IMG/VR virus record: IMGVR_UViG_3300013099_000064
Coordinates: 1 to 29,129 of that record
DNA length: 29,129 nt
Reading direction: 5' to 3' (one strand)
Source of the DNA: a virus
Shown here in pieces: positions 1-25,557 of the stretch. The position numbers were made by a program, and so were the translations under genes. Position 1 is the stretch's first letter; every line of letters begins with the position of its first letter. Below the pieces are notes generated by a model, which made no database searches, had not been told where the DNA came from, and saw only the letters and a program-made list of their open reading frames with translations.

Positions 1-3000
1 AAATTTTTGGGATTCTTGACCTAAACTAGGAACACCTACTATTCTACTAAATTTTTCTAAATAATCCTTAGCGTCTTTTGATTTTCTTTTACCAACAACA
101 TTCTTAGTAAAAGTATTCATAAGGCTAGGATTTTCTAAACGTTCAAGAACACTAGAAGAAGACATTCCACCATCTTTCTTAATAGTATTTAACATTTTAA
201 CTATTTCTTTTTGATCTTCAAATAAGTTATTAATACTACTTTCAAGTAGCATATTATAACTGCCTTTCTTTCCTTCAGACCCTTTAAAATCTAATAAGTT
301 ATCATATAAGTTTCTGGCGGTTGATTTAGCTTCTTTGTATTTAGCAAGTAATCTATCTTTTTCTTTACCTGGAGTTAGATGATCAAATTCAGGAACTTCA
401 GGATCTCCATAACGATCTTGATGGATACCTCTCTGTTTAAAAGGAGTTGCCCCAGAAGTTCTCATCTTATATAAAGGCATTAAAGGATCTTCAGCCATTC
501 CTAATACATTGACCCCGCCCGTACCTAACTGATCACTAATAGTACTCTTAATAAAAGTTTTTTCGTCGCTACCTTTAAACATCTTTTTCCTCTTAGCTGT
601 ACCCCATGTAGACACAGATTTCTTAAGTCCTGCATAAGCAGCTTCTACTACCTGATCACTTAACTCCTGTAAGAAACCTTCAAAACCAACAGCTTTAACT
701 ATATAATCTTGAAGCGCTTTTCTGTCTAATCCGTCAGTAGACATGGCTTGCATTTGAAACTGTATAGGAGCAGTCTTATCCCCACGACCTTCAGCTATCT
801 TTAATGCATCAGCATGCAGATCATTTGTAGATACCTTACCCATATTACGTCTAAGTGCTTTTTCATTTGCTTCAGAGAAATCCTTAAGATCACCATAAGA
901 ACCTTCTCTATTATTTATTTTATCTACTAACTCCTTTACGCCAGGTTTACCTCTAGATATAAGTTGAGCCATTTCAGTTGCAATCGGAGTTTCACCTGCA
1001 TGCTTTACATCAAGACCCTTTTGAATACCCACACGCATAAACTCATTCATCATAGTAGTTAATTCTTCGCCCATCCGTCCGCCTGTTGATTTTAAATCTT
1101 TAGGAAATCTTCTAGCAACATTCTCTGTAGGATTAAATTGAGCTCCAGTTCTTATAACGCCGCCACCAAAACCAACATTACTTTCAAATATCTTTAATAA
1201 TCTATTTAAGGACTCTGTATCTCTACCAGTATTAATCTTAAATAGCTGTGCATTAATTGTATTTAAATATTTAGTATTGTATAATTCATTTTTAATACTT
1301 TCTTCCATTACTGCTGAAATTTTTCCGCCCATATCTTCTAAGGCTTTTAGTAAGTCAGCACTGTAATGGTCTACCCCTGTTTTCTTATCAACTCTAGGTG
1401 TAACAGCATCTAGTGCTTTAGCAATTTCTGTCTGTATGTTTTCATCTCTATAAGCTTCAGGAATCAAGTTAGTCAACGCGCTATGAACACCTTGAGGTTT
1501 ACCATCATCTCCTGGAAAATCTGATAGTATATCCAAACGTTGCTTTGGTTTTAAATACTCCATCTCCTCAGTTAAGAATGGTTTCTTTAGAAACTCAAAA
1601 CCTTCTTTTTCTGGGAACTTTTTCTGAAAGGATAATTGCTGTTCTGCTAAAGTAAACTTACCTGTAGCAGGTACAAGAGCATCATATGTGAATTCGTCCC
1701 TAAAAGTTTGTGCAGTGGTACCTTTTGAATAGTTATAATCAGTTAAAGTTTTGTAATGCTGCGCAATCTCTCTACGTGCTGCGGCAGTTTTGGCGGAATG
1801 GATCTCTATTTGATCACCATCAAAATCCAATTTCTGTTGATGAGCCACATATTTAGGTATAACATCAGACAAAGCTTTATCTAAGGCTTCAATAGTTTTA
1901 GTTAGTTTAGATATTTTATCTTGATCAGGTGTTCCTTTGGACTGCTCCTTCTCGCGTTCAATGCTCAATTTATCTACTGTTTTATCTACTTGTCTTTTAG
2001 CTGTATCAAACATATCTATATCAAAGTCTGGCATACCTGGAGCCATTAAAGAATGTGAACTAAATATCTTCCCACCCTTACCTGTTGGTTGCTCGCCGGC
2101 TCTCAATAGTTTAGCTTCATAAGGCTGAACAGACGAGATACCTGTAAAAGGATAACGAACACTTTCAATAAAAGTAGATAGTTCGGAATCAATATATCTC
2201 TGCATGAACTCGGCCATCTTTGGAGTAACATCTTTCATAGCTTCTTCCAAGGACTCCTTGTAATTTATCATCTTTAATAAATTAGAGTTCTCTTGTATAG
2301 GAGTAGATAGTCTTTCTATAGAGTTATCATCATAAACTTTATATTTTTTTAGAAAAGAAGTAGGCAGCTTAGCAGCATACCCTTCTGAAACACCTAACTC
2401 ATGCTGTTTCAATACCGGCATTCCCTTTTCTCTCTTCTGTATTATTGACTTTTTATGGTCTTTATTAAGGTCTTCAATATTCTTTGAAGCAGACATTAAC
2501 CCATCTAAGCTAACACCTAAACCATCAGAATCAGCACTGATAGTAGCAAGGGCTTTACTAAAAGCATCTAGCTCTTGCGTCTTATCAACTACAGCATTAA
2601 CTGCTTTAGCCATAACAGCTGGAATCTTTCTTGTGAACATGAACTCTTGAACAGAACCTGTCTTACCAAGAACAGAACTAGCCAGTGTACTGTAGTATTC
2701 TATTTTAGCTCTTTCTAAACTTTCAACTGCTCTTTTTAAATCTTCATCTGAATCGGCTGGTTTAACGTTTAGTTTACCCAGTAAAGGCTCTAGGGATGAC
2801 ATACCTATATCAGCTTTAGCATCAACCAAATTAGCCGTCTTGTCCCATCTAGCTTTAAACTTACCTTGATCTGGTTCGCCTGCTGGTCCAATTATTTGGT
2901 CTATTGCTTGACTGATCGTATTTTGGTATTGTTGAGCTGAATTTTGTTTTCTATCAGTTTTTCTAGTTTTAAAGAAATTTCTTATATACTCCCCTCTATT

Positions 3001-6000
3001 CTTAAATGTACCGGGAGCTTTACCATAAGTCATCCTATCATCTACTGGAGATTCATCTAGAACAGGCATAAGCTTCTGTAAAATGTTATTTAATTTGGTA
3101 GTTTCTTCTTCTGATAGTTGTTTACTTTTAGGATCTTTACCGACTATGCCTCTGACCTCTGCACGATAGTTAGTCATCCTATCTTTTATTCTGCCTACAG
3201 TCTTCCAAATAGCGGTTGAACCAGTCTCATCCGCCTGCCCTGAAACTTCATCTACACGTTTAGCTGCATTTACTACACCTTGTAACCGTCTTGATATTAA
3301 GTCTAGTCCACGTTCACCGGCTATACTAGGCTCTGGGTAAGTAGTCCTTGCTAGAGCTCCAGGAACATAGAAAGACTCTCGTTTAGTGAGATCTTTTGTA
3401 TCAGGAATCTTTAAGTTCATTGCGCCTGGAAACTTAGCAGTATCTAATAAAGTATTAGTTAATATCCTACTTGATTCTTCTTCAGGCATTTCATGAATAT
3501 TATCCATGGAAGAGCTAGGAACAAACCTTCCTGTAGATTTAGTAAAAGATCTTAAACTTTTTACATCTACTTCTTGAGCTGAAGATAATAAAGCTGTAGA
3601 CATTTCAGATCTCTCATCATTTAATACCTGTAGAGCTTTTAAGTACTCCCAATGTTTCTTAGCTTCTAAAGGAATATCAGCAGCGAGTTGTTTAACGAAC
3701 TTGGATTGTTCTCCAAATATACTAAGATAAGCACCAACAGCTGGAATATTTAATCGTTCACCTTTTATCTGTTTCTTTATATCAGTCTCGGACCATGCTG
3801 GATTAGAGTGAGGATCTTCTACAATCTCTACAAATTTAGAACCTATTAAACTTTTTCGTTTGTTTCCAAACTCATCTACCATATCAGAATAGTAATTAGA
3901 TTCTGCTTCTAAAGCAGCTAATTTTTGAGCAGTTACTTCAGCTTCCTTTCTGGAAGCTAAATCTTTACTCTGATCTTTAGTTCTTTTAGAAACAGGAGTT
4001 TTTTCAATCTTCTTTGCTTCATCTGCGCTTATTAAGTTCTTTCTCTTCTCAAGCATAACCAAGATTTGTTCTCGGATTTTCTTTTCTGATTCATCATAAC
4101 CACTAAAACCTAAAGCCTCACTAATATTACTTAAGCTAGAAAATTTTACATCTTTTTTATCGGCAGTACCTAACATACTTTCATAAGTAGACTTATCAAA
4201 CTTATTTTTTAAAGTAGTAGATCCTTGACCTCCAGCGCCAATAACATTATTCATTATAGTTTCTAATGTTTCAGTCTGAAGTCCACGCTTAGCTGTACTA
4301 TGAGAACTTATTCTAATATCAATTGGTACTTCTTTAAATAATTCTCCTTCCTTGCCATTCTTCTTAGCGATCTTCTTATTATTAATGTATGCAGACTTTA
4401 AACCTTCTATACCTGCCACATCTTTTGCTAATTTTATATCTAATTTACTTATTGACTCTTGGGTTTTAATAAATAGTTTTTGTTGAGCTTTAGTAGCTAC
4501 ATCATCTGGAACTACCCCTAAACTAGCGTCTGTAAACATACTTAACATGAACTTATTACCACTACTAATAAGTTCTTGACGAGAAGCATCTAAATCTTTT
4601 TCAGATAAACCTAATTTCTTTGAGTTGGCCTCAAACAGTTCTTGTACTAATTCACCCATACTTTTTGGAAGTACAGCGGTACCCAAACCGGCAGTAGCTC
4701 TTTCTGATTCGCCAATGACTCTTACTTTCTTACCTTTAAACATATTAGCCATTTGCTCGCTGGTTTTATCATTAGGTTGTGTAGAAGTTATTGACACCCC
4801 CTTTGAGCCAGCTCTAGTCGTAAACTTTCTACCATAATAGTTAAAAAATGTCTCAGCTATCTTTGCAGACTGTACTTGAATACTCTTACCTCTAACGGTA
4901 GTAATAACTTTTTGAACTTCTTTTATCAAGGCGGTATCAGCTCTCCCCTTGTACTCTTGTTTAACTCCAAGTACTTCTTGAAAAACTTTATTAGCTTTCT
5001 GAATTGCATCTTCTGATGCAGCTAGAAGCTGTCCTTGCTTTATATCACTCACAGCACCTTCTTTAGAAGTTCTAATGGTGCCTTTAGGCGTAGTAAGACT
5101 CATTCTACCTAATTTATCAGGAGCAACTATCGTTTTAGTTACAGAAGTTAAGACGTCAGCCAATTTACCTGATATAACTACCTGGTCTTCAAAGGTACCA
5201 GCAGTGTTACGCATTTCAGCCATAACATTGAAACCATACCCCTGTGTGCCAGCTCGTCCACCAGCTATTAGTTTAGTTTCTTTTTCAGAACGTAAACCAG
5301 GAAAGTCTGTACCTACCCCACGGGAAGGTCTATAAGCTAGAGCATTAGTAGTACTAGCTATATTTCTACCTAACTGTTGAAACTGTGCACCAAAAGGAGC
5401 TAGCTCTGATAGTGTATCTGTGTACATCTTAATATTAGTTGCACTAAAAGCTGCTAAATATTTAGAGTCTTCATTCTGTTTTTCTTTTCTAAATTCAGTA
5501 AGAGTAGATGCTTGAGCTTCAGGTATACCTAAACTAGAAATATTGTCTACACCTGTTGGTAATCTTCCACCATACTTACCTTTATCTACATCAGTAAGAA
5601 TTTTAGTATCTTTAATAAAATCACGTAAAGAAAGATTTAAATCCCTAATGAATTGCTTCTGACCTTCAGCAGTATAACTACTTGCACCTTTATCATAAAG
5701 ACTAGAAGATAAGGTCATTAAGTTTACTACTTTCTCTTGATGAGAAGATCTTCTAGGTCTAGATGGGTCCGCTATTGGAATTAAACCTATTAACTTTCTA
5801 AAAGAAGTTTCAAGATTTCGTATACCCTTACTATAATCAGGATTTTGGCCTAGTTGTTTTAAAGGAGAGAATCCACCATCAGCTCCTTCCAGTAATTTTT
5901 TAAACATTTTATAGATATCTTGAAACTCAACAGACTCCATACTCTTTACCATATCATAAGCAGATACTTTAGCCTTGTCCATTGCGCCCATAAACTCTTC

Positions 6001-9000
6001 TATTGTGACTGACCCTGCTATAAATTTATCATACATTTCAGTAGGCAGGGCATCTATTACTTCAGCAGTAGATTCATCTTTTTTAGCTTTGACTCTTTTA
6101 TTAGCTACTAGTATAGCAGCAGTTTTATATTGTTCCACAATTTCAGTACGTATTGATTTAGAATCAATTGTTTGATTACCTTTTTTATCAAAGACATCTT
6201 TTGCTTTTGCAAGATCCGTTATCATATTTTTAGATATATTATCCGCATCTTTAAATCTAGCACCTGAAGGTCTATAACCTATGTCTTTAATTTTACTAGA
6301 ATAATTTTTATCTATATCAAAGGTCTGTGATTTAACTAAGGATTCAAACATCTTTTCAAACCCTGTTTTATACGTAGCAAATTTTGGGATAACTCTCTGG
6401 CTACCTTGTTGCGTTTCAAAAGTAGCTGCACCAGTAGTAGATAATCTAGCGGCGGGAAGTGAAACAGTTCTTGTTAACTTCTGTTCTTTAAGCTGATTTT
6501 CTGCTGTTATTTCACTAACGGTCTTCTTATAGATATTAGCTTGCCGTTCCTTTAGACCTTCTATAGCTTTAACAAGCCCTTTGGATGGCTCTGTACCCGC
6601 ACCTGAGTCATGCTTCTTTTTAATAGTTGCTAATGCTTGTTGAGTACTTTTATCCAATCCTTTCCAATTAGATATGTCATCAAAAGAAAAACGCTTTACC
6701 CATCCAGCTATTGCTTCAGATAGTTCATTTTCATTTTGTTTCACTAACTCCTCAAATACTTTATCTTTAAATTTATCTATTAATACGGTTGGATCAGTAA
6801 GATTTTTAGCTGCGCCAGTCTTTTTTTGAAGTGCTCCTATATCAGCTATCTTAAAAGAGTATTCTTTTCCTGAAGTTTTTTTGTTGAATCCTTCAGTGAG
6901 TTTAAAAAATTCTGAAACATTAGCATTTTCTTTTTTTCTTACTATACGCCAATCTTTAGGTTTGCCTCCTTGTTTAGCAGCCCTTTCTCTAGTATCCTTA
7001 AGTTCTTTATCTAGTTCCTCTACCATAAACTGCTGTAGATCTAATAAAGAATTAGCTAAGCCTTTAACATTCTCTTCAACAATACCTCTGGCTTCTTCAC
7101 CAGCATCAAGTTTCCTTTTGACAGGTATAGTTGTATTTCTAGAAGGTCCTATTTGAGATTCATTATAACTATAAACCTGTTTCTGTGTAGTAGGAAATTT
7201 TTTGGTATCTTTAGAACCAGTATTCTTAACAGATACACCGAAGTCTTTAAACATATCTGTAGGTTTATTCTGTGCTATTCTATTTTGAGATGCTTCAATA
7301 GCTTTACTTACTTCTTCAACTCCTTTTAATTCTTTCTTTAATTGACCAACAGCCTTAAGAATGTTTTCCATCTCATTACCACCACCAGCTGAAGTTATAG
7401 TACTCCTTATTTCCTTAAGAAGTGCTTCAGCTTCAGGAACTTGACTATAAAAAGGACCGCTTGGGCGTTTACTTGCTGGGGATGAACCTGCTTGTACTCT
7501 AGATAAACCTGCCTCATTACTTATAAATCTTAATAATTCTTTAGGATCTTGAACTTTAGAATTTACTTCTCCTTGTAAATTTTTACTATATACGCTTCTG
7601 GCATTATTCCTATCATAGTCTGGTCCACCTCTTTTAGATTCTTTAGTTACTTTAGTTAAAAGATCATTTAATTCTTTTATTAAGCTATTAAAAACAGAAA
7701 CCAATTCCTGTGCTTCTTTTTTATTACTGCCTGAAGAAATAACATTTTTGCCAGCATCTGCTGATCTTTTAGCCCCCCATAACCTAGAAGAACTATGGTA
7801 TTCTATAGTTTCTTTTGCCAGTTCCCTACGCATAGATTCAATATGTTTTGGATCGTATATAGGCCTTACTGGAATATTTAAAGGTTCAACAAGTTTACTT
7901 GAAGTCTTATTAAATCCTTTAAATTCTGATGCGTCAGGAGTAAGTTTGATAGGAATTGCTTTTTTAGGCATTGCATTATCTATAGCAAGCTGTACATCTT
8001 TAGAAGTTATATCAAGGGTCATTGATATAGTTCTTGCTGCATTTATTACTTTATTCATACTAGTAATAAACTTACCGTAATCTTGTCTTTTTATTGCTGG
8101 TTCTTTTACACCTTTTGGAACCTGTGTAGACAGTTTAGCTATATCTTTAAATACGTTTTGAAATACCTTAACGTCTACAATATCTTTAGAAGCTAGACTT
8201 GATAATTCTTTTGAAGCTGCACTTATAGAGGTCCCAACTTTCTCTAATCCATCTATAGTACCCTCGAATCTATCAAGAGCTTCAACTAGTTTCTTAATGC
8301 CTGGACTTTCTTCTATCTTTATATTTTGTTTTAAGACTGTAGATAATTCATTAAACATTCCTTTAGTAAACAAGGTAGGATCACTAGAGACTGCTTTTCT
8401 AGAAGTACGGACACTAGTAACAGTTCTAGTCTGTAATAACTTTACTTCTTTGATTATACCATCAAATTTTTTCTGCAAATCCTCAGGAAGCTTGCCTATC
8501 TCGCCTACTATATTAGCTACTTGAGATATTAAAGATTTAATATCATTATTACCTTTAGTAATATTTTTTAAGAAGGGGCCTAACTCGGTTAGGTCTACTC
8601 CTCCACCACTCTTTGAAAAACTTTTAGCTTGTTGGAAAGCTTTAATACCTGTCTTGCTTAAAGATAGTAGACTACCCATGGTTGTATTTAATTCATCTAT
8701 TATGCTATAGAATTTAGGAGGTATAACACCACTTACTGCTGTTTGTAACGTTCTCTGTAATTCTTTTTGGGAAGCTGGATCAATAGTTACACCTTTAGAT
8801 GCTAGAGCTTTAGTTAAAGCAGCAACAGTTGTAGCTGATTGATTATCTAAACTTTTTGTTATGGCAGATACATCTAATATCTTGCCTGGAGTTGCTCCTG
8901 GAGCTGCAGACGCAGCAGTACCAGTGAAAGTTTGTTTAATTGTCTGATTAACTATAGTTTTAACAATAGAAGTAATCTCTGCCTTACTAAGAGAGAAACC

Positions 9001-9234
9001 ACCACCAGATCCCTTACTTAAATTTTCTATAGCTTTCAACAAAGCATTACTAATAGCACTTTTGCTTTGTTCTTTAATGGCAGCTTTAATATCTTTTAAA
9101 GTGTCATTTACATTTTTTTGTAGATTTTTATCAGATTTTGACAGCTCTACAGTAGGAGTTCCTCCACCTTTAGAACCTTTTGCTGCAGCAGTATTCGAAG
9201 TTGTTTCATTAATGTTTAAGTTATAATCGACCAA
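1..9234 (-). CDS. Giant tape-measure-position protein containing a single-chain two-barrel RNA polymerase (3' end beyond window)
   Basis: The frame is open from a TTG at 9232-9234 to the left edge, at least 3078 codons with no stop. The TTG is chosen because AGGAGG (9243-9248) lies 8 nt upstream and no ATG is near. Residues 1-1300 are Lys/Ser/Thr-rich, Cys-poor and look mostly helical, like a tape measure. Residues about 1320-1662 match the catalytic part of RNAP beta: FED 1348-1350, GRKFTTRAGSKGV 1468-1480 (K1470 and K1478 match E. coli K1065 and K1073), and PIDI at 1637. Residues about 2281-2874 match beta-prime: GVSEGYAAKL, RYP 2360-2362, DFDGD 2470-2474 (three metal-binding Asp), a bridge-helix-like and a trigger-helix-like segment. 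It follows the tube and chaperone-like genes, which is the tape-measure slot. The likely role is a virion RNAP carried in the tail and ejected with the DNA. The RNAP call is firm; the tape fusion and virion packaging are inference. The C-terminus is not seen. Confidence 0.93.
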   Translation of the reverse strand, partial: MVDYNLNINETTSNTAAAKGSKGGGTPTVELSKSDKNLQKNVNDTLKDIKAAIKEQSKSAISNALLKAIENLSKGSGGGFSLSKAEITSIVKTIVNQTIKQTFTGTAASAAPGATPGKILDVSAITKSLDNQSATTVAALTKALASKGVTIDPASQKELQRTLQTAVSGVIPPKFYSIIDELNTTMGSLLSLSKTGIKAFQQAKSFSKSGGGVDLTELGPFLKNITKGNNDIKSLISQVANIVGEIGKLPEDLQKKFDGIIKEVKLLQTRTVTSVRTSRKAVSSDPTLFTKGMFNELSTVLKQNIKIEESPGIKKLVEALDRFEGTIDGLEKVGTSISAASKELSSLASKDIVDVKVFQNVFKDIAKLSTQVPKGVKEPAIKRQDYGKFITSMNKVINAARTISMTLDITSKDVQLAIDNAMPKKAIPIKLTPDASEFKGFNKTSSKLVEPLNIPVRPIYDPKHIESMRRELAKETIEYHSSSRLWGAKRSADAGKNVISSGSNKKEAQELVSVFNSLIKELNDLLTKVTKESKRGGPDYDRNNARSVYSKNLQGEVNSKVQDPKELLRFISNEAGLSRVQAGSSPASKRPSGPFYSQVPEAEALLKEIRSTITSAGGGNEMENILKAVGQLKKELKGVEEVSKAIEASQNRIAQNKPTDMFKDFGVSVKNTGSKDTKKFPTTQKQVYSYNESQIGPSRNTTIPVKRKLDAGEEARGIVEENVKGLANSLLDLQQFMVEELDKELKDTRERAAKQGGKPKDWRIVRKKENANVSEFFKLTEGFNKKTSGKEYSFKIADIGALQKKTGAAKNLTDPTVLIDKFKDKVFEELVKQNENELSEAIAGWVKRFSFDDISNWKGLDKSTQQALATIKKKHDSGAGTEPSKGLVKAIEGLKERQANIYKKTVSEITAENQLKEQKLTRTVSLPAARLSTTGAATFETQQGSQRVIPKFATYKTGFEKMFESLVKSQTFDIDKNYSSKIKDIGYRPSGARFKDADNISKNMITDLAKAKDVFDKKGNQTIDSKSIRTEIVEQYKTAAILVANKRVKAKKDESTAEVIDALPTEMYDKFIAGSVTIEEFMGAMDKAKVSAYDMVKSMESVEFQDIYKMFKKLLEGADGGFSPLKQLGQNPDYSKGIRNLETSFRKLIGLIPIADPSRPRRSSHQEKVVNLMTLSSSLYDKGASSYTAEGQKQFIRDLNLSLRDFIKDTKILTDVDKGKYGGRLPTGVDNISSLGIPEAQASTLTEFRKEKQNEDSKYLAAFSATNIKMYTDTLSELAPFGAQFQQLGRNIASTTNALAYRPSRGVGTDFPGLRSEKETKLIAGGRAGTQGYGFNVMAEMRNTAGTFEDQVVISGKLADVLTSVTKTIVAPDKLGRMSLTTPKGTIRTSKEGAVSDIKQGQLLAASEDAIQKANKVFQEVLGVKQEYKGRADTALIKEVQKVITTVRGKSIQVQSAKIAETFFNYYGRKFTTRAGSKGVSITSTQPNDKTSEQMANMFKGKKVRVIGESERATAGLGTAVLPKSMGELVQELFEANSKKLGLSEKDLDASRQELISSGNKFMLSMFTDASLGVVPDDVATKAQQKLFIKTQESISKLDIKLAKDVAGIEGLKSAYINNKKIAKKNGKEGELFKEVPIDIRISSHSTAKRGLQTETLETIMNNVIGAGGQGSTTLKNKFDKSTYESMLGTADKKDVKFSSLSNISEALGFSGYDESEKKIREQILVMLEKRKNLISADEAKKIEKTPVSKRTKDQSKDLASRKEAEVTAQKLAALEAESNYYSDMVDEFGNKRKSLIGSKFVEIVEDPHSNPAWSETDIKKQIKGERLNIPAVGAYLSIFGEQSKFVKQLAADIPLEAKKHWEYLKALQVLNDERSEMSTALLSSAQEVDVKSLRSFTKSTGRFVPSSSMDNIHEMPEEESSRILTNTLLDTAKFPGAMNLKIPDTKDLTKRESFYVPGALARTTYPEPSIAGERGLDLISRRLQGVVNAAKRVDEVSGQADETGSTAIWKTVGRIKDRMTNYRAEVRGIVGKDPKSKQLSEEETTKLNNILQKLMPVLDESPVDDRMTYGKAPGTFKNRGEYIRNFFKTRKTDRKQNSAQQYQNTISQAIDQIIGPAGEPDQGKFKARWDKTANLVDAKADIGMSSLEPLLGKLNVKPADSDEDLKRAVESLERAKIEYYSTLASSVLGKTGSVQEFMFTRKIPAVMAKAVNAVVDKTQELDAFSKALATISADSDGLGVSLDGLMSASKNIEDLNKDHKKSIIQKREKGMPVLKQHELGVSEGYAAKLPTSFLKKYKVYDDNSIERLSTPIQENSNLLKMINYKESLEEAMKDVTPKMAEFMQRYIDSELSTFIESVRYPFTGISSVQPYEAKLLRAGEQPTGKGGKIFSSHSLMAPGMPDFDIDMFDTAKRQVDKTVDKLSIEREKEQSKGTPDQDKISKLTKTIEALDKALSDVIPKYVAHQQKLDFDGDQIEIHSAKTAAARREIAQHYKTLTDYNYSKGTTAQTFRDEFTYDALVPATGKFTLAEQQLSFQKKFPEKEGFEFLKKPFLTEEMEYLKPKQRLDILSDFPGDDGKPQGVHSALTNLIPEAYRDENIQTEIAKALDAVTPRVDKKTGVDHYSADLLKALEDMGGKISAVMEESIKNELYNTKYLNTINAQLFKINTGRDTESLNRLLKIFESNVGFGGGVIRTGAQFNPTENVARRFPKDLKSTGGRMGEELTTMMNEFMRVGIQKGLDVKHAGETPIATEMAQLISRGKPGVKELVDKINNREGSYGDLKDFSEANEKALRRNMGKVSTNDLHADALKIAEGRGDKTAPIQFQMQAMSTDGLDRKALQDYIVKAVGFEGFLQELSDQVVEAAYAGLKKSVSTWGTAKRKKMFKGSDEKTFIKSTISDQLGTGGVNVLGMAEDPLMPLYKMRTSGATPFKQRGIHQDRYGDPEVPEFDHLTPGKEKDRLLAKYKEAKSTARNLYDNLLDFKGSEGKKGSYNMLLESSINNLFEDQKEIVKMLNTIKKDGGMSSSSVLERLENPSLMNTFTKNVVGKRKSKDAKDYLEKFSRIVGVPSLGQESQKF
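613..957 (-). other. Bridge-helix-like and trigger-helix-like segments of the RNAP
   Basis: SRGKPGVKELVDKINNREG (residues 2760-2778, DNA 901-957) follows the bridge-helix pattern G-x-x-G-x4-[IV]-x2-[LI]-x4-G seen in E. coli SGARGSAAQIRQLAGMRG. It starts about 290 residues after DFDGD, compared with about 310 in E. coli. Near residue 2858 (DNA 613-663), LSDQVVEAAYAG matches LADTALKTANSG of the trigger-loop N-helix at L, D, A and G. Its spacing from the bridge helix is about 95 residues, somewhat shorter than in E. coli. The trigger-helix match is weaker than the bridge-helix match. Both are my alignments by eye. Confidence 0.65.
1750..2394 (-). other. RNAP beta-prime-like double-psi barrel with catalytic DFDGD
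   Basis: This covers residues about 2281-2495 of the giant protein. GVSEGYAAKL (2281-2290) matches beta-prime GLPKKMALEL. RYP (2360-2362), six residues, then VQ-x-Y matches RAP, six residues, IQ-x-F (E. coli R425 region, which contacts the incoming nucleotide). DFDGDQIEIH (2470-2479, DNA 1798-1827) matches DFDGDQMAVH; its three Asp would hold the catalytic magnesium. Two differences from cellular enzymes stand out. The Asn before the motif (E. coli N458) is replaced, since the residues here are K-L-D. The distance from RYP to DFDGD is about 108 residues instead of about 35, because of a hydrophilic, charged insertion. Confidence 0.93.
4249..5277 (-). other. RNAP beta-like catalytic region of the giant protein (double-psi barrel with two lysines)
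   Basis: This covers residues about 1320-1662 of the giant protein. In order it shows A-x-M, six residues, then FEDQVVIS (1348-1355). The E. coli beta segment has the same A-x-M, six residues, FEDSILVS. Next comes GRKFTTRAGSKGV (1468-1480, DNA 4795-4833), identical to E. coli GDKMAGRHGNKGV at 7 of 13 positions, including both catalytic lysines 8 residues apart. Last is PIDIRISSHSTAKRGLQTE (from 1637), which lines up without gaps on beta PVDIVLNPLGVPSRMNIGQ. About 155 residues separate KGV from PIDI, much more than in E. coli, so the barrel carries an insertion. The comparison was by eye against remembered sequences. Confidence 0.9.
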
Positions 9235-9296: not shown

Positions 9297-10304
9297 CTAT
9301 CCTCGCTTTATCCTTTTTTTAATGTCGGCTTTGTCTTTTAGACGTTTAGCCTCTCTGGGGGTATCATACTTTATATCTTGGTATAACTCATTAGAGGCAG
9401 TAACAATTACTTCCTCTGAATCAAATGCTGATAGTTTGCCTGTTGATTTATTCTTGCTTCGCCTTGCGGCGTCCTCTCGGTTCCTTTCCTCGTAGAAGTG
9501 TTTCATGAAGGCATCGAGTGCCTCATCATCCTCTATAACTAAATCACTAGGTCTATCTTCTGGCATCATTTGATAAATATTATCATAATAATTAGACCAA
9601 TATGCTAAACTTAACATGTCGGTTGAATAATTCGCTGATGGCACACCAAATAAAGATTCAGAAAGTTTTTGACTATTTATATATCGGATACGCCATAAAT
9701 TATGTCTTGCTACAAATCTAATTACATCTATTACAAGCCCTGAATAAAAAATTAAAAAAGAAGTTAAAACTTTATCTCTATTAACTATATTAGTAGTATC
9801 TTTAAACTCATTAAAGGTTTTCCAAATGAGTTTATTGTCTTCGTTAAAAGCACATCGCCAACATAAGTATAATGATTTTTCTTCATTAGCTTTAACTTCA
9901 GCAGACATCATTAATTTGGAAGTCTTTTTATAGTTAAGTTCGTTGATCTCAGTCTTTACCTTAGCTATAACTCCCTTAATTCTATCTTGATTGGACCTAA
10001 CAACTGTTGTTTTAGCAAGAAGTATTCTTTGTCCTTCTAGTTGTGTGTACAATTTGTCCAACCTCTTTTGATCTTCTTCGGTGAATAAATTTCTTTGTTT
10101 AATTAATTCTTCTAAAGAAGATCTATCTAGTAATCCACTTTCTATAGCTTTGTCATATTCTGCTTTATATAGAACGTCTGCTTGTAATTTGATATGATTA
10201 TTTGGATATTTTAAAGTTACAAATTTACCATCAATTATTTTAATTATTGATCCGGTGGCTATACTTGTGATATATCTCTCTACATCATCGTCGTCAATAA
10301 GCAT
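9297..10304 (-). CDS. Putative tail-assembly protein upstream of the tape-like giant (chaperone slot), 335 aa
   Basis: I do not recognise a named family. The protein is 335 aa, mixed-charge, with an acidic start (IDDDD at residues 3-7), a Lys-rich helical middle (about 65-145) and a very basic C-terminus. Residues about 145-245 hold the most conserved-looking part: LYLCWRC, IWKTFNEF, ARHNLWRIRY and LAYWSNYYDNIYQ, followed by an acidic IEDDEALDAFM. The IWKTFNEF region resembles VWETYEDFL of the preceding 252-aa protein. It starts 17 nt after that gene and ends 62 nt before the giant gene, the slot filled by tail-assembly chaperones in many phages. The ribosome site is poor (AAAGAA close to ATG), which suggests translation coupled to the preceding gene. 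The function is inferred from position. Confidence 0.6.
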   Translation of the reverse strand: MLIDDDDVERYITSIATGSIIKIIDGKFVTLKYPNNHIKLQADVLYKAEYDKAIESGLLDRSSLEELIKQRNLFTEEDQKRLDKLYTQLEGQRILLAKTTVVRSNQDRIKGVIAKVKTEINELNYKKTSKLMMSAEVKANEEKSLYLCWRCAFNEDNKLIWKTFNEFKDTTNIVNRDKVLTSFLIFYSGLVIDVIRFVARHNLWRIRYINSQKLSESLFGVPSANYSTDMLSLAYWSNYYDNIYQMMPEDRPSDLVIEDDEALDAFMKHFYEERNREDAARRSKNKSTGKLSAFDSEEVIVTASNELYQDIKYDTPREAKRLKDKADIKKRIKRG

Positions 10305-10321: not shown

Positions 10322-11080
10322 TTACTTCTTAGTCAAAGTTTTCTTTGTTTTTGGTTTAGCCTTAGCTTTCGGGGTTGGTTTAACTTCCTTAACTTCAGGA
10401 GGTGATTCCACTTCCTCTGCTAATCTTTCTGCTTCTACTGCGTCAGCTGCTTTCTTAATAATATCCTGTTCTACTTCTCTCATAGCCATTGCTTCAGGAG
10501 TGTTTTCAAGAAAATTAGAGTCGTAACCCTGTAGAAATAACATTACTTCATACCGAGCCTTCAATGTCAATGACTGGGAAGTAGAAGACAAAAAATCTTC
10601 ATAGGTTTCCCAAACTTTATTTTTATCTTTCTTTTGAATAATTCTTGAAGTTAGATATTCGAGCCTCGCATCATCAGCAATCTGTTCGCAGGTGTTACTC
10701 ATGGGGCCACTTAATCTCTGGTTCCATTGAAATAAGGCTTCCCTTGCTTGAGCTACATCTACTGCCATGGCTGCTTTTTCTTCGTTAGATTCTGTGTCAT
10801 TTAGTCTAGAAATGAGTTCATTGAGAGTATAGGCCAGTTCATCAGCACGTCTATCGAAGTCAGTACCGACGATGTCACGTTTTCTAAGAATGTCCATTAA
10901 CTCTGCACTTGTAGGAATACCTTCAGTAAGGCATTTGGTGTAGGTTTTACTATACTGCCAGTCTGCACCACGAATGTCTTCCGCTTTAGGTGCACCAATA
11001 AAATACTCAGTCTCTTCATCAGCTCCGAAAAAACTACGTCTATCCTCATAAATCTCTTCTGTTTTGTTTTCTTCTACCAT
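10322..11080 (-). CDS. Putative tail-assembly protein, 252 aa, with Lys/Pro-rich tail
   Basis: This is a conserved-looking phage protein without a function I can prove. Its N-terminus is acidic with FFGADEETEYFIGAP, then ADWQYSKTYTKCL and helical segments. A stretch FQWNQRLSGPMSNTCEQIAD leads to VWETYEDFL and ENTPEAMAMREVE. Residues about 225-252 are a flexible, basic Lys/Pro/Thr tail. The start has an AAGGAG site (AAGGAGAAATAAAATG). It lies between the 84-aa gene (11-nt gap) and the 335-aa gene, after the tube gene and before the giant gene, so a tail-assembly chaperone-like role is the best guess. A minor tail or scaffold protein is also possible. Confidence 0.6.
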   Translation of the reverse strand: MVEENKTEEIYEDRRSFFGADEETEYFIGAPKAEDIRGADWQYSKTYTKCLTEGIPTSAELMDILRKRDIVGTDFDRRADELAYTLNELISRLNDTESNEEKAAMAVDVAQAREALFQWNQRLSGPMSNTCEQIADDARLEYLTSRIIQKKDKNKVWETYEDFLSSTSQSLTLKARYEVMLFLQGYDSNFLENTPEAMAMREVEQDIIKKAADAVEAERLAEEVESPPEVKEVKPTPKAKAKPKTKKTLTKK

Positions 11081-11091
11081 TTTATTTCTCC

Positions 11092-11346
11092 TTATCCTTT
11101 ATTCCTAAATTCGATTACTTCTTCAGTGAGTTTATTAAATTCAATCTCATAAGCATCGAACTCCTTGGTTAGATTACGCATACAGTCATTTCCAACACGT
11201 AATATTTTTGATCTTAATTGTTTAAAGTTATCTTTAGGACATGCTACATCAGCAAAATCTAGCGTCTTTTCCATCATCCTAGTAACCTCTTTCCTCATTG
11301 CCTGTATAAGCCTCTTCCGGCTGTTGTCCTTAAATTTTTCTCCCAT
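11092..11346 (-). CDS. Small basic helical phage protein, 84 aa
   Basis: No family is recognised. It is 84 aa and mostly charged and helical: the N-terminal half is Arg/Lys-rich (residues 1-30) and the C-terminal half mixed acidic and basic (FDAYEIEFNKLTEEVIEF). Two cysteines are spaced far apart. The start is preceded by a purine-rich AAGGAAGGTAAAGG. It is the first gene after the two hairpins that follow the tube gene and is 11 nt from the 252-aa gene. It is probably part of the tail-assembly set. Confidence 0.55.
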   Translation of the reverse strand: MGEKFKDNSRKRLIQAMRKEVTRMMEKTLDFADVACPKDNFKQLRSKILRVGNDCMRNLTKEFDAYEIEFNKLTEEVIEFRNKG

Positions 11347-11431: not shown

Positions 11432-13012
11432 TTAAGCATTACGCATAATAGCGTTAACATCAGCATAAGCTATATCGCCTTTAACTACATACAGATCATT
11501 ACTGGATTTGAAACCAAATGTCTGTGTTGCATTAGATCCAACGTCAAGGGTCATACCCTCATCAGTGATCTTAAGGTTTTTAACAATTATAGTTTTAAGT
11601 GCATACTCTTGATCGAGTGCGCTATATGTTGCCATTGTACCATTAAGGAAATATTCATCACCAATCATATCACTGCCTGCAAGAACTTTACGTCCTGCAC
11701 CAGTAGCTCCACCGGCTTCTTCATCAGTTTGTTCAAATACTTTAACAACCAGAGTCAGATTATCTTTAGTCATAAGATCTGTAAGATCTATAGATTGGAT
11801 AGTCGTTGCATCATAGTCGACCAGTTTTCCTGCAAACTTTGCCCAGTTTTCCAAATCACCAGCAGTAGTATCAATACTCATAGTAATTGGAATAGGTAGA
11901 GTAAGTGGTCTATCATAAGGACCTAAGTGCCCGAGCTCCGCAAGGGGTTCACGAGTAAGATCAGTAGAGATAGTAGCACCAGTTAATCTCCAAGCATTAT
12001 CATAATCGGTTGCAGCAGAATCTGGATCAACAATATATACTTCTACTTGACCTTGTCTTAATGCGCCTACGGCGTCAGGTCTAGTAGTTTCCTCTGTTAG
12101 AGGTACGAAGTAGTCATTCATTGCACCTGCATAATCATTAGCAGAGTAAACCACCTGAAGCACATCATCATCAATAGGAACATTAATAGATGTTGGGAAA
12201 TGGATAGTGTGTCCAGTCCCAGTATCTTCATAGATATATTTGCCTTCAAAGCCTGGCTGATCAACATCGCCAGAAACTCCAACAACAATTGCTACATTTT
12301 CTGCAGTGCCTGCTGCTGTGTCATAATGAGTAACGGCAGATACACCGTTGTTGTCTTTTCTCAAAAAGCCTAGGCCTGTTGAAAGTATTGCAACATCCAT
12401 ACCATCTGCTAAAGTAAGATCCCAAGTAGTAGCACTACCTGAAATAGTTACTGTCTCAAAATTAACAAACCTACCATCATTCAGTAACCACATTTTATTG
12501 TCTGTTTCCGCGCCATAGTTCTCTGTAGCGTTAGCTCCAGTTGTATAGCTGTATTCCAGACTATTGATATACACTTCATCAAGAAACAAAGTTTGATCAA
12601 TGTTATTAGCCAAAGTACCAATAGAACACTCGTCCTGAACTGGTGCCCATAAAGTAACACCAGTAAGATTACCACAGGTTACTGCGAAGTCAGCCAATGC
12701 CACACCATGCAAATAAGTTCCATTTGCAATAAGATTAGCATTAGTTACGTCAGCAGTAGCATCCATAGCAATTTTTGCTGGAGATACCTGGGCTAGTTTA
12801 GCGAATGTTTTTACGTCACCAAAATCATTGGTGTTCAAAGTTACAGTTACTGCAGGTACATCATCAACTACATCGATTATATCTAAGTGACCAAGCTCAA
12901 ATATATCTTCAGATGTAAAAGATGTGGTAGTCCCGAGAGACTGAACTCTATAAAGTACTTCACCATCAACCCATACGGATTGTGAAGCATAAATTATTCT
13001 ATTACGTGCCAT
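11432..13012 (-). CDS. Major tail-tube-like protein with internal duplication, 526 aa
   Basis: This 526-aa beta-rich, acidic protein is probably the main tail tube subunit. Two parts of the chain look alike. Residues about 20-75 hold ELGHLD (E39) followed by V-x-V-T-x-x-L-N-T and FAKLA; residues about 340-400 hold ELGHLG (E359) followed by P-I-T-M-S-I-D-T and WAKFAG. This suggests a duplicated tube domain about 320 residues apart, with extra domains between. The start has AGGAGG 10 nt upstream. It follows the terminator-like gene after a 110-nt gap, is followed by the double hairpin, and precedes the chaperone-slot genes, the order expected of a tube gene. No separate sheath gene is seen next to it, so a non-contractile tail is likely. 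A sheath role is a less likely alternative. Confidence 0.7.
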   Translation of the reverse strand: MARNRIIYASQSVWVDGEVLYRVQSLGTTTSFTSEDIFELGHLDIIDVVDDVPAVTVTLNTNDFGDVKTFAKLAQVSPAKIAMDATADVTNANLIANGTYLHGVALADFAVTCGNLTGVTLWAPVQDECSIGTLANNIDQTLFLDEVYINSLEYSYTTGANATENYGAETDNKMWLLNDGRFVNFETVTISGSATTWDLTLADGMDVAILSTGLGFLRKDNNGVSAVTHYDTAAGTAENVAIVVGVSGDVDQPGFEGKYIYEDTGTGHTIHFPTSINVPIDDDVLQVVYSANDYAGAMNDYFVPLTEETTRPDAVGALRQGQVEVYIVDPDSAATDYDNAWRLTGATISTDLTREPLAELGHLGPYDRPLTLPIPITMSIDTTAGDLENWAKFAGKLVDYDATTIQSIDLTDLMTKDNLTLVVKVFEQTDEEAGGATGAGRKVLAGSDMIGDEYFLNGTMATYSALDQEYALKTIIVKNLKITDEGMTLDVGSNATQTFGFKSSNDLYVVKGDIAYADVNAIMRNA

Positions 13013-16326: not shown

Positions 16327-19029
16327 TTATAAATTTATTGGTTTAGGAAATGGACTATACACTTTAACTTTAGGTGTAATAGTACCTATATCTTTTTTAC
16401 TAGCTTTAGGGCCAGGTATCAATGATAAATCTTCTGACTTCATTGGGGCTGGAGTAATTAATTCAGCGGTCATACCCATCTCCCCAATATTGTAAACATC
16501 TGGATCTGGATTACATATAGGTACAGTTACCAAAGAACCCATAGTGAGCGCCACATTATCCAACCAGAAACTAATATCACCTTCCATTTTAAAACGTAGT
16601 TTATTTATATAAGTAGGCCAACCTTCTTTATCAGTTTGAGGTGTTAGTTTAAAATTAGATAAAGGTATCATAACCTTAGTCCAAGGGCCTAATGAAGCTA
16701 TGTCTATATAAGAACTTAAATTAACGTCCACACCATAAGAATAATTAGTGGAGTATAATCTAATAACTACGTCTTTCTTACTATTCCAACTCTTGATATT
16801 AATCCAAAATGAAAGAAAATCATAATCATTTGAATCCATGTCTAATGCGTTATTTCTATAAAAATAAATAGATTCATTATCTTTATCATAACTAACATCT
16901 AAACCATTTGTGCCTCTGTATTTAGAGGCTGTAGACTCTTCACCTGCTCCAGATCTCAACCAATCAGCTTCAACATCTAATATACCAGTTCCGTTCCATA
17001 TATTATATATTGACGCCGAATCTGGACAAGTTTCTGTAATTAATAGAGTATCATAATCACTAGTAGTAGTACCTGTACCATACACAAACCCAGTAACCTT
17101 GTACCATCCTGTAGTAGAAAAACAAAGAGTCTTTTGTTGTTGGTCTATTCCTATAGGACTTTCCCATACTAAATTCCAAGGACCTTCTTCTGTTATACCT
17201 GAAGACACTGTCCATCCGTAATTATTTACTGTACCATCAGAGGAAGTACCTACTACATTAATACTGTAGTAACAATCTTCTGGAGTAACTGTTACTGTTG
17301 TTTCAAATACTACATCTTCAGAAATACAGGTAGTTTTTGTATCCCAACCATCCGACCATTCAGCACATAAACTTACTTGGGCTGCGGCTGACGTAGGTAT
17401 TTTTTCAAACTCATAACTAAAAGGTGTATCTGTTATAGAGGCTACTCCAGTAGCATCTGTCCAAGTCCATGAGTACTCCACATGATTAGGTAAACCTAAT
17501 CCTACCCTACTAGTATTAATAGAGGTATTAGTAAAACTTATACCACTACCTACAGGTGCTGGTACTGGTTCTTGTATAAAACGTACAGTAGGTCCAGAAA
17601 ATTTGCCTTGTACTATAATCTCACTGTGAGTGACTGTGTTATCATCCCATCCATCATTCCAATTAATCACTATTCCTACAGAATGACTACCTGAATTAGT
17701 GAATGCTCCTGGTGTAGACAAATTTCCATACCATGAAGCCCCGAGTCCTTCTGTGTGTTCTACTGTAGTACCCTTAGGTACATCATTTATAACTGTATCA
17801 GTACTACCATCGTCTATAGTCCAATCAATTCCAGTTATTCTATTATCAACATCACTTCCTGTGTAGTTAAAAGAAACTACTGTACTAGGCACACTGACAG
17901 TATTATTAACAGCCTCATTACAAACTAGATCTAAAGCAGAAGGAGTTCTAAATTTAGACTGTGTGAAATTCTCTGTATAAACTGTAGTCTGGTTCTCATG
18001 TCCATCAAACCAATTTACAGTGACTTCCACTGTATGAGTTCCTGGATTAGTAAACGCTCCTGGCGTAGCTGTATGATTTAACCACGAGGTACCTTCTCCT
18101 TCAGTATGTGATGCTATATCATTCGCCCCAGTAGTAGCTGATGTAGTAGTATTACCATAAGCTCCACTATCATTTATAACCCAATCTATAGAGGTTATAG
18201 TACCATCTACATCTGTACCAACATATTTAAAATACACTGGAGTGTCTGGTGTTGTTATGGTATTTCCTTGTGTGGTTCCTCCACTTGTACATCTAGCTAT
18301 ATTCGGACTAGGGGCATGCCAGTAAGTTTTGATCTCCACTGTGTCAGACGTTGTATCGTCACAATAGTCTGAAATCTCTATACCTACTGAGTAGGTCCCT
18401 GATGAGTCCCAACTATAAGTAGAATTAGCAGATCCTGCTAAACCTAAAGTAGTCTCACCATTACCCCAATCGTAATCCGTAGACTCGACTTTATTTATAC
18501 TACTTATATTCTGGCCCCATCTAGTATCCCAGTGCCACATAGTAACACTACCAGCCGAAGCAACTCCATTGAAAACCCATGAGTGAATATCGTTACTATT
18601 ATTAGTTACACTGTAGGTAGTATTAACATAAGCGTGCGTCGGTATATTATCATACCATACTAAATTAGGTGCCATGTTGTCTTTTATTTGAGCATCATGG
18701 GTATAGAATGACCCACCACCAAGTATAAGTTCAAACGCTCCCCATTCAGTCAATAAACCGCAATCAGCTAGTCTATTAGGATCTCCTTTCCAAAATACTA
18801 TCACTACCCTAGCATCACTTAAAGCTACACCATCCTGAGTCAACCAGTCAGCGTCTCCAAGGTTTATATTAAAATACCCTGAAGCTTCACAGGATCTAAC
18901 GTTATTCCACTTGGAAGCACTAGAAGCTGTTTGGCCTTTATAAAAATAGCCTTGATAATAGATACTAGAGTTACCTATATTAGTATCCTTATCATATGTG
19001 CGACCATCAAAGGTAATATTCAAGCTCAT
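16327..19029 (-). CDS. Large appendage protein with PKD/Ig-like repeats and a C-terminal carbohydrate-binding-like domain, 900 aa
   Basis: I start it at ATG 19027-19029 (MSLNITFDGR), with AGAGAGG 11 nt upstream; an ATG 24 codons earlier lies inside the preceding gene. The N-terminal 150 residues are beta-rich with many Trp. Then come Ig/PKD-like units from about residue 160. Two are clearly repeats of each other (about 245-355 and 367-470): both have P-x-x-V-x-F-x-Y-x-G-x-DVD, ITxIDWxI, HTEGxGxSW, TPGAFTNxGxHxV and a W-x-DG loop. Two more divergent units follow (from about 480 and 580). Residues about 674-825 look like a beta-jelly-roll sugar-binding domain ending with FWLDNVAL. It is probably a surface-exposed head or neck fibre or whisker that contacts polysaccharide. 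There is no signal peptide. Confidence 0.7.
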   Translation of the reverse strand: MSLNITFDGRTYDKDTNIGNSSIYYQGYFYKGQTASSASKWNNVRSCEASGYFNINLGDADWLTQDGVALSDARVVIVFWKGDPNRLADCGLLTEWGAFELILGGGSFYTHDAQIKDNMAPNLVWYDNIPTHAYVNTTYSVTNNSNDIHSWVFNGVASAGSVTMWHWDTRWGQNISSINKVESTDYDWGNGETTLGLAGSANSTYSWDSSGTYSVGIEISDYCDDTTSDTVEIKTYWHAPSPNIARCTSGGTTQGNTITTPDTPVYFKYVGTDVDGTITSIDWVINDSGAYGNTTTSATTGANDIASHTEGEGTSWLNHTATPGAFTNPGTHTVEVTVNWFDGHENQTTVYTENFTQSKFRTPSALDLVCNEAVNNTVSVPSTVVSFNYTGSDVDNRITGIDWTIDDGSTDTVINDVPKGTTVEHTEGLGASWYGNLSTPGAFTNSGSHSVGIVINWNDGWDDNTVTHSEIIVQGKFSGPTVRFIQEPVPAPVGSGISFTNTSINTSRVGLGLPNHVEYSWTWTDATGVASITDTPFSYEFEKIPTSAAAQVSLCAEWSDGWDTKTTCISEDVVFETTVTVTPEDCYYSINVVGTSSDGTVNNYGWTVSSGITEEGPWNLVWESPIGIDQQQKTLCFSTTGWYKVTGFVYGTGTTTSDYDTLLITETCPDSASIYNIWNGTGILDVEADWLRSGAGEESTASKYRGTNGLDVSYDKDNESIYFYRNNALDMDSNDYDFLSFWINIKSWNSKKDVVIRLYSTNYSYGVDVNLSSYIDIASLGPWTKVMIPLSNFKLTPQTDKEGWPTYINKLRFKMEGDISFWLDNVALTMGSLVTVPICNPDPDVYNIGEMGMTAELITPAPMKSEDLSLIPGPKASKKDIGTITPKVKVYSPFPKPINL

Positions 19030-19036
19030 ATATATA

Positions 19037-19744
19037 TTAACCTCTCTCTTCCAAATAACTACACTTAAATTTCTTATGTTGACTTTGTCTATTTTTTGCA
19101 CATGCGTACATACAACTTGGGGTTAAGTTGTTGTCCTTACAAAAATTTAAAAGCCCTTTAATTATCTCAGTGTGCCCGTCAGGATATGTTATTTTAAACA
19201 TTTTTGACGTTGGTGATTTTTCACCGACCATACCGTACATAGGGTTATTTTTCCCAGATGCTCTAACACTCATTAACTTACAATGAGATTCTGTTAGAGT
19301 TTTACCTTTATGGCTGTCGGACATCCTCTGCCTAGTCTCCCTAGACCATTTTTTACCTTTATTAGGATGTCCCTTTTTCAACAAGCTGACCTTAGTTGCT
19401 TCTGCCATCTTTTTTTTAGAAGATTTCGAATGTTTCCACCCTGATTGAACTTCTCCAAAAGAACGCATATTGTACCCTAATTTAACAGAATTATATTTAT
19501 TTATATAATAAGTCTCTTTATCATTAAGTATATTTTTAGCGACGTTATCTTCTAGAATTTCCCATATAAAGTCTCCCTCATTGTATTTTCTTAAAGCATT
19601 ATGAAAATGATAATTATCTATATTTCTATAAGCATCAGAGTAATGATGTTGTTTTCTTCTTTTTAATATTTGAATAGTCTGACCAATATAAACTTTATTA
19701 TTTAATATATTAGTAACTTTATAAATTACACCAAAAGACATCAT
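19037..19744 (-). CDS. Free-standing GIY-YIG homing endonuclease with NUMOD3-like DNA-binding repeats, 235 aa
   Basis: Residues 5-95 match the I-TevI catalytic domain closely: GVIYKVTN (GIY part), LNNKVYIGQT (YIG part), a catalytic Arg in KRRKQHH (about R29-R30), and Glu in KETYYINKYNS followed by GYNM. Residues about 100-170 hold three NUMOD3-like units (GWKHSKSSKKKMAEA, GKKWSRETRQRMSDS, GKTLTESHCKLMS). A C-terminal helix-turn-helix-like part ends in the NRQSQHKKFKC region. The gene starts immediately after the stop of the 144-aa gene (TAGATGATG) and ends 7 nt before the 900-aa gene, whose ribosome site lies inside its last codons. It is intact and probably spreads by cutting alleles that lack it at this junction. 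No intron is seen. Confidence 0.92.
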   Translation of the reverse strand: MMSFGVIYKVTNILNNKVYIGQTIQILKRRKQHHYSDAYRNIDNYHFHNALRKYNEGDFIWEILEDNVAKNILNDKETYYINKYNSVKLGYNMRSFGEVQSGWKHSKSSKKKMAEATKVSLLKKGHPNKGKKWSRETRQRMSDSHKGKTLTESHCKLMSVRASGKNNPMYGMVGEKSPTSKMFKITYPDGHTEIIKGLLNFCKDNNLTPSCMYACAKNRQSQHKKFKCSYLEERG

Positions 19745-20731: not shown

Positions 20732-21310
20732 TTATTTTTTAGTCCATATTATCTCGAATAAATCAGAAGGTATTAAATAGTCATCTGGATAGATAAACGT
20801 ATTATCCTTAGAAACTCCACCTCTTAAAGGGTAATCATAACAAAAATCTGTAAATTCAGAACAATAAAATTGAGTAATATCTTGTTTATCAAAATCATAA
20901 TCGTACTCTATATCTTTTGCTAGTTGCTCATAAGCTCTTTTAATAGCTAGATCAACCTTGTCCTGTGCAATAGGCCTAACAACTGCAATGTTATCAGCTC
21001 TTAAGAAAGTTAGAATATCTTGTTTTATTATTCCATCTGTCATCACATGAATTATTTTATTATCCCCTACATATAAACCTACATGACCAAAGTCGCCTTT
21101 TATAAACAAAGAACTTATATAATGATCATGGGCATTTAATACTAAATCACCAGGTTGTAACGCGTCTATTATTTCCCGCCAGTCTGGTCCTTTTAGTTTA
21201 TATTTGGATTCCCCAAATAAAACTATTCCTCCTTTGTAGATTCTTATATTACCAAAAAAATCTATAAGGTTTTCTTTCAAGCGTCTAAAAAGACTTTTCT
21301 TACTTTTCAT
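20732..21310 (-). CDS. NlpC/P60-superfamily (YiiX-type, permuted) papain-like protein, 192 aa
   Basis: PGDLVL (residues 53-58) and GHVGLYVGDNKIIHV (75-89, H76) are followed by YCSEFT (149-154, C150). This His-before-Cys order is that of the circularly permuted NlpC/P60 group, which includes YiiX, and it differs from classical peptidoglycan endopeptidases where Cys comes first. The N-terminal 40 residues are basic and amphipathic. There is no signal peptide and no membrane helix. AGGAGG precedes the ATG. It lies among fibre genes, so it may be a virion-borne hydrolase acting on peptidoglycan or on lipid or amide bonds during entry. Fold is confident; substrate unknown. Confidence 0.75.
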   Translation of the reverse strand: MKSKKSLFRRLKENLIDFFGNIRIYKGGIVLFGESKYKLKGPDWREIIDALQPGDLVLNAHDHYISSLFIKGDFGHVGLYVGDNKIIHVMTDGIIKQDILTFLRADNIAVVRPIAQDKVDLAIKRAYEQLAKDIEYDYDFDKQDITQFYCSEFTDFCYDYPLRGGVSKDNTFIYPDDYLIPSDLFEIIWTKK

Positions 21311-25541: not shown

Positions 25542-25557
25542 CAAACTCTCCTATTAA

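Follow-up and report, generated by a model that had tools for sequence, protein, structure and literature searches.

An open reading frame in the window (the whole 29,129-nucleotide stretch of viral DNA analysed here, IMG/VR virus record IMGVR_UViG_3300013099_000064) encodes a protein in which the pentapeptide ELGHL occurs twice. The locus raises the question of whether this protein is a tail-tube subunit built from a duplicated domain, as a first-pass annotation had proposed, and what kind of tail such a subunit would serve. The frame delimited in that annotation was recovered exactly; it begins with ATG and encodes 526 amino acids (Table 1). Our explanation as a whole, to which we give a probability of roughly 0.86, is that a large, siphophage-like phage uses this product as its major tail-tube protein, with two duplicated and fused tube-fold domains and three subunits per pseudo-hexameric ring. 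It draws on four computed results: the internal repeat, a fold match that extends along the protein, the order of the genes, and the identification of the neighbouring gene as a tape measure in relatives.

Table 1 Features of the tube locus and of the neighbouring giant frame, in window positions
Feature	Position	Strand	Basis
Double-domain tail-tube protein, 526 aa, stop codon included	11432..13012	-	repeat, Foldseek, VIA
Tube domain 1, residues ~1-180, boundaries approximate	12473..13012	-	secondary structure; mean majority identity 0.87
Central accessory beta domain, residues ~181-310, variable	12083..12472	-	mean majority identity 0.54
Tube domain 2, residues ~311-526	11435..12082	-	mean majority identity 0.76; single-domain tube matches
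ELGHL, first copy (39-43), presumed long ring-to-ring loop (loop function inferred)	12884..12898	-	sequence, model
ELGHL, second copy (359-363)	11924..11938	-	sequence, model
GANAT, first copy (159-163)	12524..12538	-	sequence
GSNAT, second copy (492-496)	11525..11539	-	sequence
Codons 37-52, place of interruption in 15 split relatives; intact in the window	12857..12904	-	contig reading
84-aa ORF between tube and tape measure	11092..11346	-	no convincing family (PHROGs, Pfam)
252-aa ORF, putative tail-assembly-chaperone position (position only)	10322..11080	-	gene order
335-aa ORF, putative tail-assembly-chaperone position	9297..10304	-	gene order
Giant ORF truncated at the window end (3078 codons or more); N-terminal portion of putative tape measure with RNA-polymerase-like region	1..9234	-	relatives
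GRKFTTRAGSKGV, aligned by hhalign with E. coli RpoB GDKMAGRHGNKGV (1063-1075)	4795..4833	-	score within shuffled controls
DFDGD, aligned by hhalign with E. coli RpoC DFDGD (460-464)	1813..1827	-	34.2 vs maximum 25.5, 40 shuffles

Internal repeat of the tube protein

The two ELGHL copies, beginning at residues 39 and 359, had been taken as the mark of an internal repeat and of a duplicated domain, and the likeness indeed extends well beyond them. Residues 12-177 and 332-510 align locally with 46 identities in 184 columns and a score of 84, which none of 2000 shuffles reached (mean 39.8, s.d. 6.5, maximum 77). The repeat between the halves is thus confirmed as real. The best ungapped diagonal of 40 residues (140/473) spans a second motif pair, GANAT at residue 159 and GSNAT at residue 492, which was absent from the first-pass list. 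Comparison of profiles of the two halves gave a score of 27.8, above all 60 column-shuffled controls (highest 23.2), although the probability assigned by HHalign was low, at 14.9%. A comparison of the middle with the C-terminal profile was dropped because the two segments overlapped by construction.

The repeat was also examined in the family, using 28 proteins (that of the window and 27 relatives) with 200 shuffles each. It reached z ≥3 in 16 of them, at an identical register in all and with z up to 8.5, and 13 of these outscored every shuffle. Values below 3 were found in the other 12 proteins tested, namely five closer relatives (L009, L016, L018, L023 and L024; z 1.5-2.9) and all of the diverged relatives at 37-49% identity (L093, L098, L101, L105, L106, L108 and L110; z -0.9 to 2.6).

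Predicted structure and fold matches

An AlphaFold model of the protein, made from a 35-row alignment, has a mean pLDDT of 70.7 and a pTM of 0.72. Because pLDDT lies below 50 at residues 1-12, at residues 21-55 and in several loops, the first domain stands partly on low-confidence coordinates. The best Foldseek match in the PDB, and the sole one with E ≤0.001, is the P74-26 tail tube (E 2.0e-4); T5 and DT57C chains follow, and the E-values of the tube rows are modest throughout (2e-4 upward). With VIA-align, which re-aligns Foldseek's candidates only, the top eight rows, at Z 11.4-14.8, all belong to T5, DT57C, P74-26 or SH-Ab15497 and represent tube, tail-tip or baseplate chains; the next row drops to Z 8.0. 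The match to T5 pb6 (5ngj_A, Z 14.8, 291 residues, 4.1 A) covers model residues 4-523, and that to the P74-26 tube (8ed0_A, Z 13.8, 274 residues, 3.9 A) covers residues 7-512. Further rows in this group are a T5 tube chain (9iny_A, Z 14.5), DT57C (8hrg, Z 14.1), the SH-Ab15497 major tail protein (8xan_A, Z 13.2) and a T5 tail-tip chain (9ioz_A, Z 11.4). The second half also matches single-domain tubes, such as that of SPP1 (6yeg, Z 6.9).

The first-pass annotation had named different folding of the two parts as the outcome that would speak against a duplication. In the secondary structure of the model, strands and helices instead follow one another in the same order and register in both halves, in step with the sequence repeat (E56-61/E375-383, H67-73/H387-393, H78-81/H397-401, E141-157/E473-482 and E163-176/E496-504). 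The description as tail-tube-like agrees with the leading Foldseek and VIA matches, and that of a double-domain tube with the repeat and the alignment to T5 pb6 and P74-26 along the whole model; together, repeat and model place two tandem tube-fold domains in one chain. As far as a predicted model can carry it, a tail-tube identity with a double domain is well supported.

Between the two tube domains lies a beta-rich segment (residues ~181-310), a central extra domain that the first-pass annotation did not mention. It accounts for 51 of 97 insertion columns in the family alignment, and its majority identity, calculated like those of the other domains from 28 full-length alignment rows, is given in Table 1. 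The VIA matches of this segment reach Z 8.0 and are mostly to parts of phage baseplate, portal-tail and fibre or fibre-anchor proteins, which may reflect just a common arrangement.

Distribution of the family

Database searches with the window protein found no relative in PHROGs or Pfam (E ≤1), in the phage-record collection by tblastn (E ≤1), or among PDB sequences by single-sequence and profile search. When 35 family members were searched against PHROGs, the window protein gave no row and the others gave weak rows only (best E 0.0035). Relatives were found in IMG/VR, with 46 loci from the protein query and 63 from the alignment query, together 63 contigs that were examined. These are 19 to 545 kb long, and their tube proteins are 37% to 86% identical to that of the window. 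The sole relative in the genome collection is L150, a 20-kb contig in a Gammaproteobacteria MAG, which we do not count as host evidence. The 'moraphages' were considered as members of the same lineage and set aside as unlike, since the accessible part of their description (PMC12619734) gives them sheath genes and reports no RNA polymerase.

Genomic neighbourhood and tape measure

Downstream of the tube gene come three ORFs (84, 252 and 335 residues) and, after them, a frame of 3078 codons or more that is truncated at the window end. This frame reaches the window edge before any tape-measure domain, and its identity was sought in the records of tube relatives. Pfam PhageMin_Tail was found at E ≤0.001 in 41 of 48 such records, 39 of them over the cut-off. 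In 24 records the frame bearing the domain has at least 7,000 codons (23 of 7,007-8,654 and one of 14,712), while the remaining records have shorter frames, some apparently ended by contig ends. PhageMin_Tail also matches in 7 of 14 control genomes. In the record G001, whose tube protein is 86% identical, the domain (E 1.9e-27) lies in a frame of 7820 codons (G001:C1:72811-96270; L144, L145). Since PhageMin_Tail is located in the giant frames of relatives, the giant frame of the window is read as a tape measure as well, and in the relatives the tube gene stands beside a tape-measure gene. Tail-sheath families (PF17482 and PF04984) matched in none of 20 records, some of which may be fragments.

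A similar succession is present in Thermus phage P23-45, in which P23p94 (348 aa) and P23p95 lead up to the tape measure P23p96, much as the tube gene and small ORFs lead up to the tape measure here. P23p94 is annotated as hypothetical, and its probable identity as a tube protein is taken from its length, which equals that of the P74-26 tube chain.

Proposed tube assembly and alternatives

In the proposed assembly, one subunit would combine two tail-tube-fold domains derived from a duplication and fusion, and with two tube domains in each subunit, three subunits and not six would close a ring. From each half, a long loop with the conserved ELGHL segment would plug into a socket on the ring that follows. 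The rings would be stacked around the giant tape-measure protein encoded downstream, which would set the length of the tail, and we infer that the variable beta domain in the linker between the halves projects from the outside of the tube. The trimeric ring is proposed by analogy with known double-domain tubes. The T5 tube arose by duplication and fusion of a tube domain and forms trimeric, pseudo-hexameric rings (PMC5717097, accessible part), and the P74-26 tube likewise has duplicated tube domains and trimeric rings (PMC10034513, accessible part).

The role as the major rather than a minor tube protein is likewise our interpretation, and it has to be weighed against a second kind of trimeric protein with two tube-like domains, namely a minor ring-forming tail-tip or hub protein (of the T5 tail-tip ring or gp27/VgrG hub type) that is not the main subunit. 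The T5 tail-tip chain is among the structural matches, and according to the accessible text of PMC5717097 hub and spike proteins show such a duplication too, as an independent event. We nevertheless consider a minor ring protein unlikely, as the main tube proteins match better (Z 13.2-14.8), the gene is located just before the ORFs in chaperone position and the giant tape-measure frame, in an order similar to that of P23-45, and the other searched ORFs of the window gave no match to a family named for a tube (24583-25008 and 25011-25544 lay outside the search). That nothing but common loop motifs and a beta-rich composition makes the halves alike, in a single large tail decoration or fibre protein that is not a tube, would suit the 12 of 28 proteins with a weak or undetectable repeat and the low pLDDT of much of the first 55 residues, but is very improbable given a window repeat far above shuffles, a structural match that spans both halves, and a second half that by itself matches single-domain tubes.

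Comparison with known tubes

As a major tube protein with a double domain, the window protein would join a small group, as the accessible literature names threefold double-domain tubes for few phages (T5, phiCbK and P74-26). T5 pb6 and the DT57C tube share the two tandem tube-fold domains and match along the whole protein, yet their identity to the window protein in structural alignments is 9-12% and there is no sequence-profile match. The extra Ig-like domain of T5 is C-terminal (PMC5717097, accessible part), whereas that of the window protein stands between the two tube domains. The P74-26 tube is described in the accessible literature as smooth and without an extra domain, unlike the window protein with its central one, and its two domains are 16% identical (PMC10034513, accessible part), compared with the 46 of 184 columns found here. 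SPP1-type tubes, although matched by the second half, have single-domain subunits in hexameric rings (PMC10034513, accessible part), in contrast to the double-domain chain of the window. What is new here is a family without relatives in the searched collections, with a duplication still recognisable at sequence level and the extra domain located elsewhere.

RNA-polymerase-like region of the tape measure

The giant neighbour, a tape measure judging by its relatives, looks like it carries RNA-polymerase-like features, partly on the evidence of a predicted model. The hhalign program put the window sequence KLDFDGDQIEIHSA on RpoC DFDGDQMAVH with a score of 34.2, beyond the maximum of 25.5 among shuffled controls (n = 40). 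The pattern D[FYIL]DGD is found in frames of more than 500 codons at 33 of 47 loci, the window included, and several of the other 14 end before the site; among the 30 loci retrieved for the polymerase region, every one has it. Querying IMG/VR with this region gave no relative, and relatives were reached through the records of the tube loci instead. In G001 a single frame (7820 codons) holds both DFDGD, at codon 2452, and PhageMin_Tail, and in 29 of the 32 records with a polymerase-region match, that match and PhageMin_Tail are in frames of equal length. Pfam RNA_pol_Rpb1_2 was found at E ≤1 in 20 of 30 members (best 5.8e-5), with the window under the cut-off at E 0.078. In the record G036 (L110; tube 48% identical) the frame with the tape-measure domain has only 3591 codons and no polymerase-region match, and the fusion there may be absent, split or cut.

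A model of window positions 1-3600 (giant-ORF residues 1879-3078) has a pLDDT of 81.1 and is mostly helical. All 50 VIA matches listed are largest-subunit chains of RNA polymerase (Z 12.8-13.5, 256-501 residues), although for a helical model a Z of about 13 may reflect a common arrangement; the Foldseek search that supplied the candidates gave weak E-values, 1.6e-3 at best. A beta-like motif, GRKF..SKG, falls at the expected spot of RpoB, but its score of 20.95 lies within the shuffled range (maximum 24.6, n = 40), and on RpoC, at an unrelated place, the profile containing it scored higher (26.4). No polymerase emerged from PDB-profile and Pfam searches of that region. With these scores, homology of residues 700-1878 to the beta subunit is a lead and not a result.

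According to the accessible part of PMC10770324, the tape measure of P23-45 includes a virion RNA polymerase with a DFDGD motif, a fusion shown experimentally, and in the accessible literature on tape measures such a fusion is named for P23-45 only. The window type of tape measure resembles P23-45 gp96 but is larger, with 7820 codons in G001. The P23-45 polymerase is N-terminal with DFDGD at residue 779, and it is active as a 1200-residue fragment without a clamp (PMC10770324, accessible part), whereas the window DFDGD lies at about residue 2470 and the polymerase-like model aligns along its length with beta' chains. A close homology of the giant ORF to gp96 was considered and rejected, as hhalign aligned the motif only, with scores of 22.1 and 22.5 against a maximum of 23.4 in 10 shuffles. 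P23-45, with its polymerase-bearing tape measure, is a relative of P74-26, with its two-domain tube, and two unusual features thus seem to co-occur again at this locus. The pairing of a two-domain tube with a polymerase-fused tape measure seems to recur in diverse large phages, known here from metagenome contigs.

The longest of these frames comes from the 545-kb record (G032, L105; tube 41% identical). It has 14,712 codons with DFDGD at codon 1998 (L146-L148, G032:C1:288398-332533, minus strand). From its N-terminal end onward, Pfam recognised RNA_ligase (5.7e-10), LigD_N (4.2e-16), RVT_3 or RNase H (1.5e-25) and PhageMin_Tail (2e-26), with DnaJ (1.8e-13) far downstream of the last. Among the 33 records searched, RVT_3 within a tape-measure frame was found in G032 only. 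At even odds, the tube would be the barrel and the ruler would also be cargo: a beta/beta'-like RNA polymerase joined to a tape measure exceeding 7,000 residues, accompanied in the 545-kb relative by RNA ligase, LigD-type 3'-phosphoesterase, RNase H and DnaJ domains, would pass into the cell in a single chain, and its conduit would be a very long tube of trimeric double-domain type. Whether polymerase-bearing tape measures go with trimeric tubes, and whether several enzymes are injected as one ruler protein, are testable questions. The tube family offers material for reconstructing the duplication, yet its genomic company matters more.

Interrupted tube genes in relatives

Like the polymerase features of the tape measure, the introns of the relatives lie beyond what the first-pass annotation could see. 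The tube gene is split in 15 of the 63 contigs, with every break between codons 37 and 53, and is unbroken in the other 48; that of the window has no break and no Rfam gathering match. Some split patterns are shared (L005-L007; L014, L015 and L038; L035 and L036), giving ten arrangements in all, and L037 begins inside the tube gene. The Rfam group I model matches above the cut-off in L005 (three matches in a row; L005:9004-10004), L035 (L035:8198-10004) and L041 (L041:10001-10696), and also in the 64th contig, L150, at an insertion near codon 15 (L150:5001-5311). Scores under the cut-off were obtained for L034, L037 and L089, and no group I match at E ≤0.5 for L014, L040, L042 and L091. With such weak or absent Rfam matches, the intron type in these seven rests on the intron ends and on ORFs that resemble LAGLIDADG endonucleases (none was read in L037). 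Where the type of intron could be recognised, it is group I.

In L005, read by eye, exons of about 13 and 32 bases stand between introns. No exon for codons 38-48 was located in L042 (L042:28-1740) between the exons on either side, and an intron-core-like sequence is repeated, from either a lost exon or a collapsed assembly. The tube gene of the relatives is an intron hotspot, where as many as three introns crowd into some 16 codons, exons are very short and LAGLIDADG-like ORFs occur.

In Staphylococcus phage Twort the tail-tube gene is described as containing three group I introns and undergoing exon skipping (PMC11878797, accessible part). In the Twort record AY954970, three Rfam group I matches were found at 16606-17506, which from their place after ORF011 would be the tail-tube gene. 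They start about 330 bases into ORF106, unlike the breaks of the relatives within the first 53 codons, and Twort is a herellevirus. Its tube protein is not known to be related to that of the window.

Other genes of the window

A gene for a GIY-YIG/NUMOD3 homing endonuclease (19037-19744, minus strand; phrog_314 E 5.5e-33, NUMOD3 E 2.2e-10) is located between structural genes, and a YiiX-like permuted papain amidase (Peptidase_C92, E 4.1e-12; 20732-21310, minus strand) among the tail-side genes. The N-terminal domain of the major tropism determinant, Mtd_N, was found in the products of 22375-23514 and 23525-24568 (minus strand; E 3.8e-11 and 1.5e-9), two possible receptor-binding or fibre proteins.
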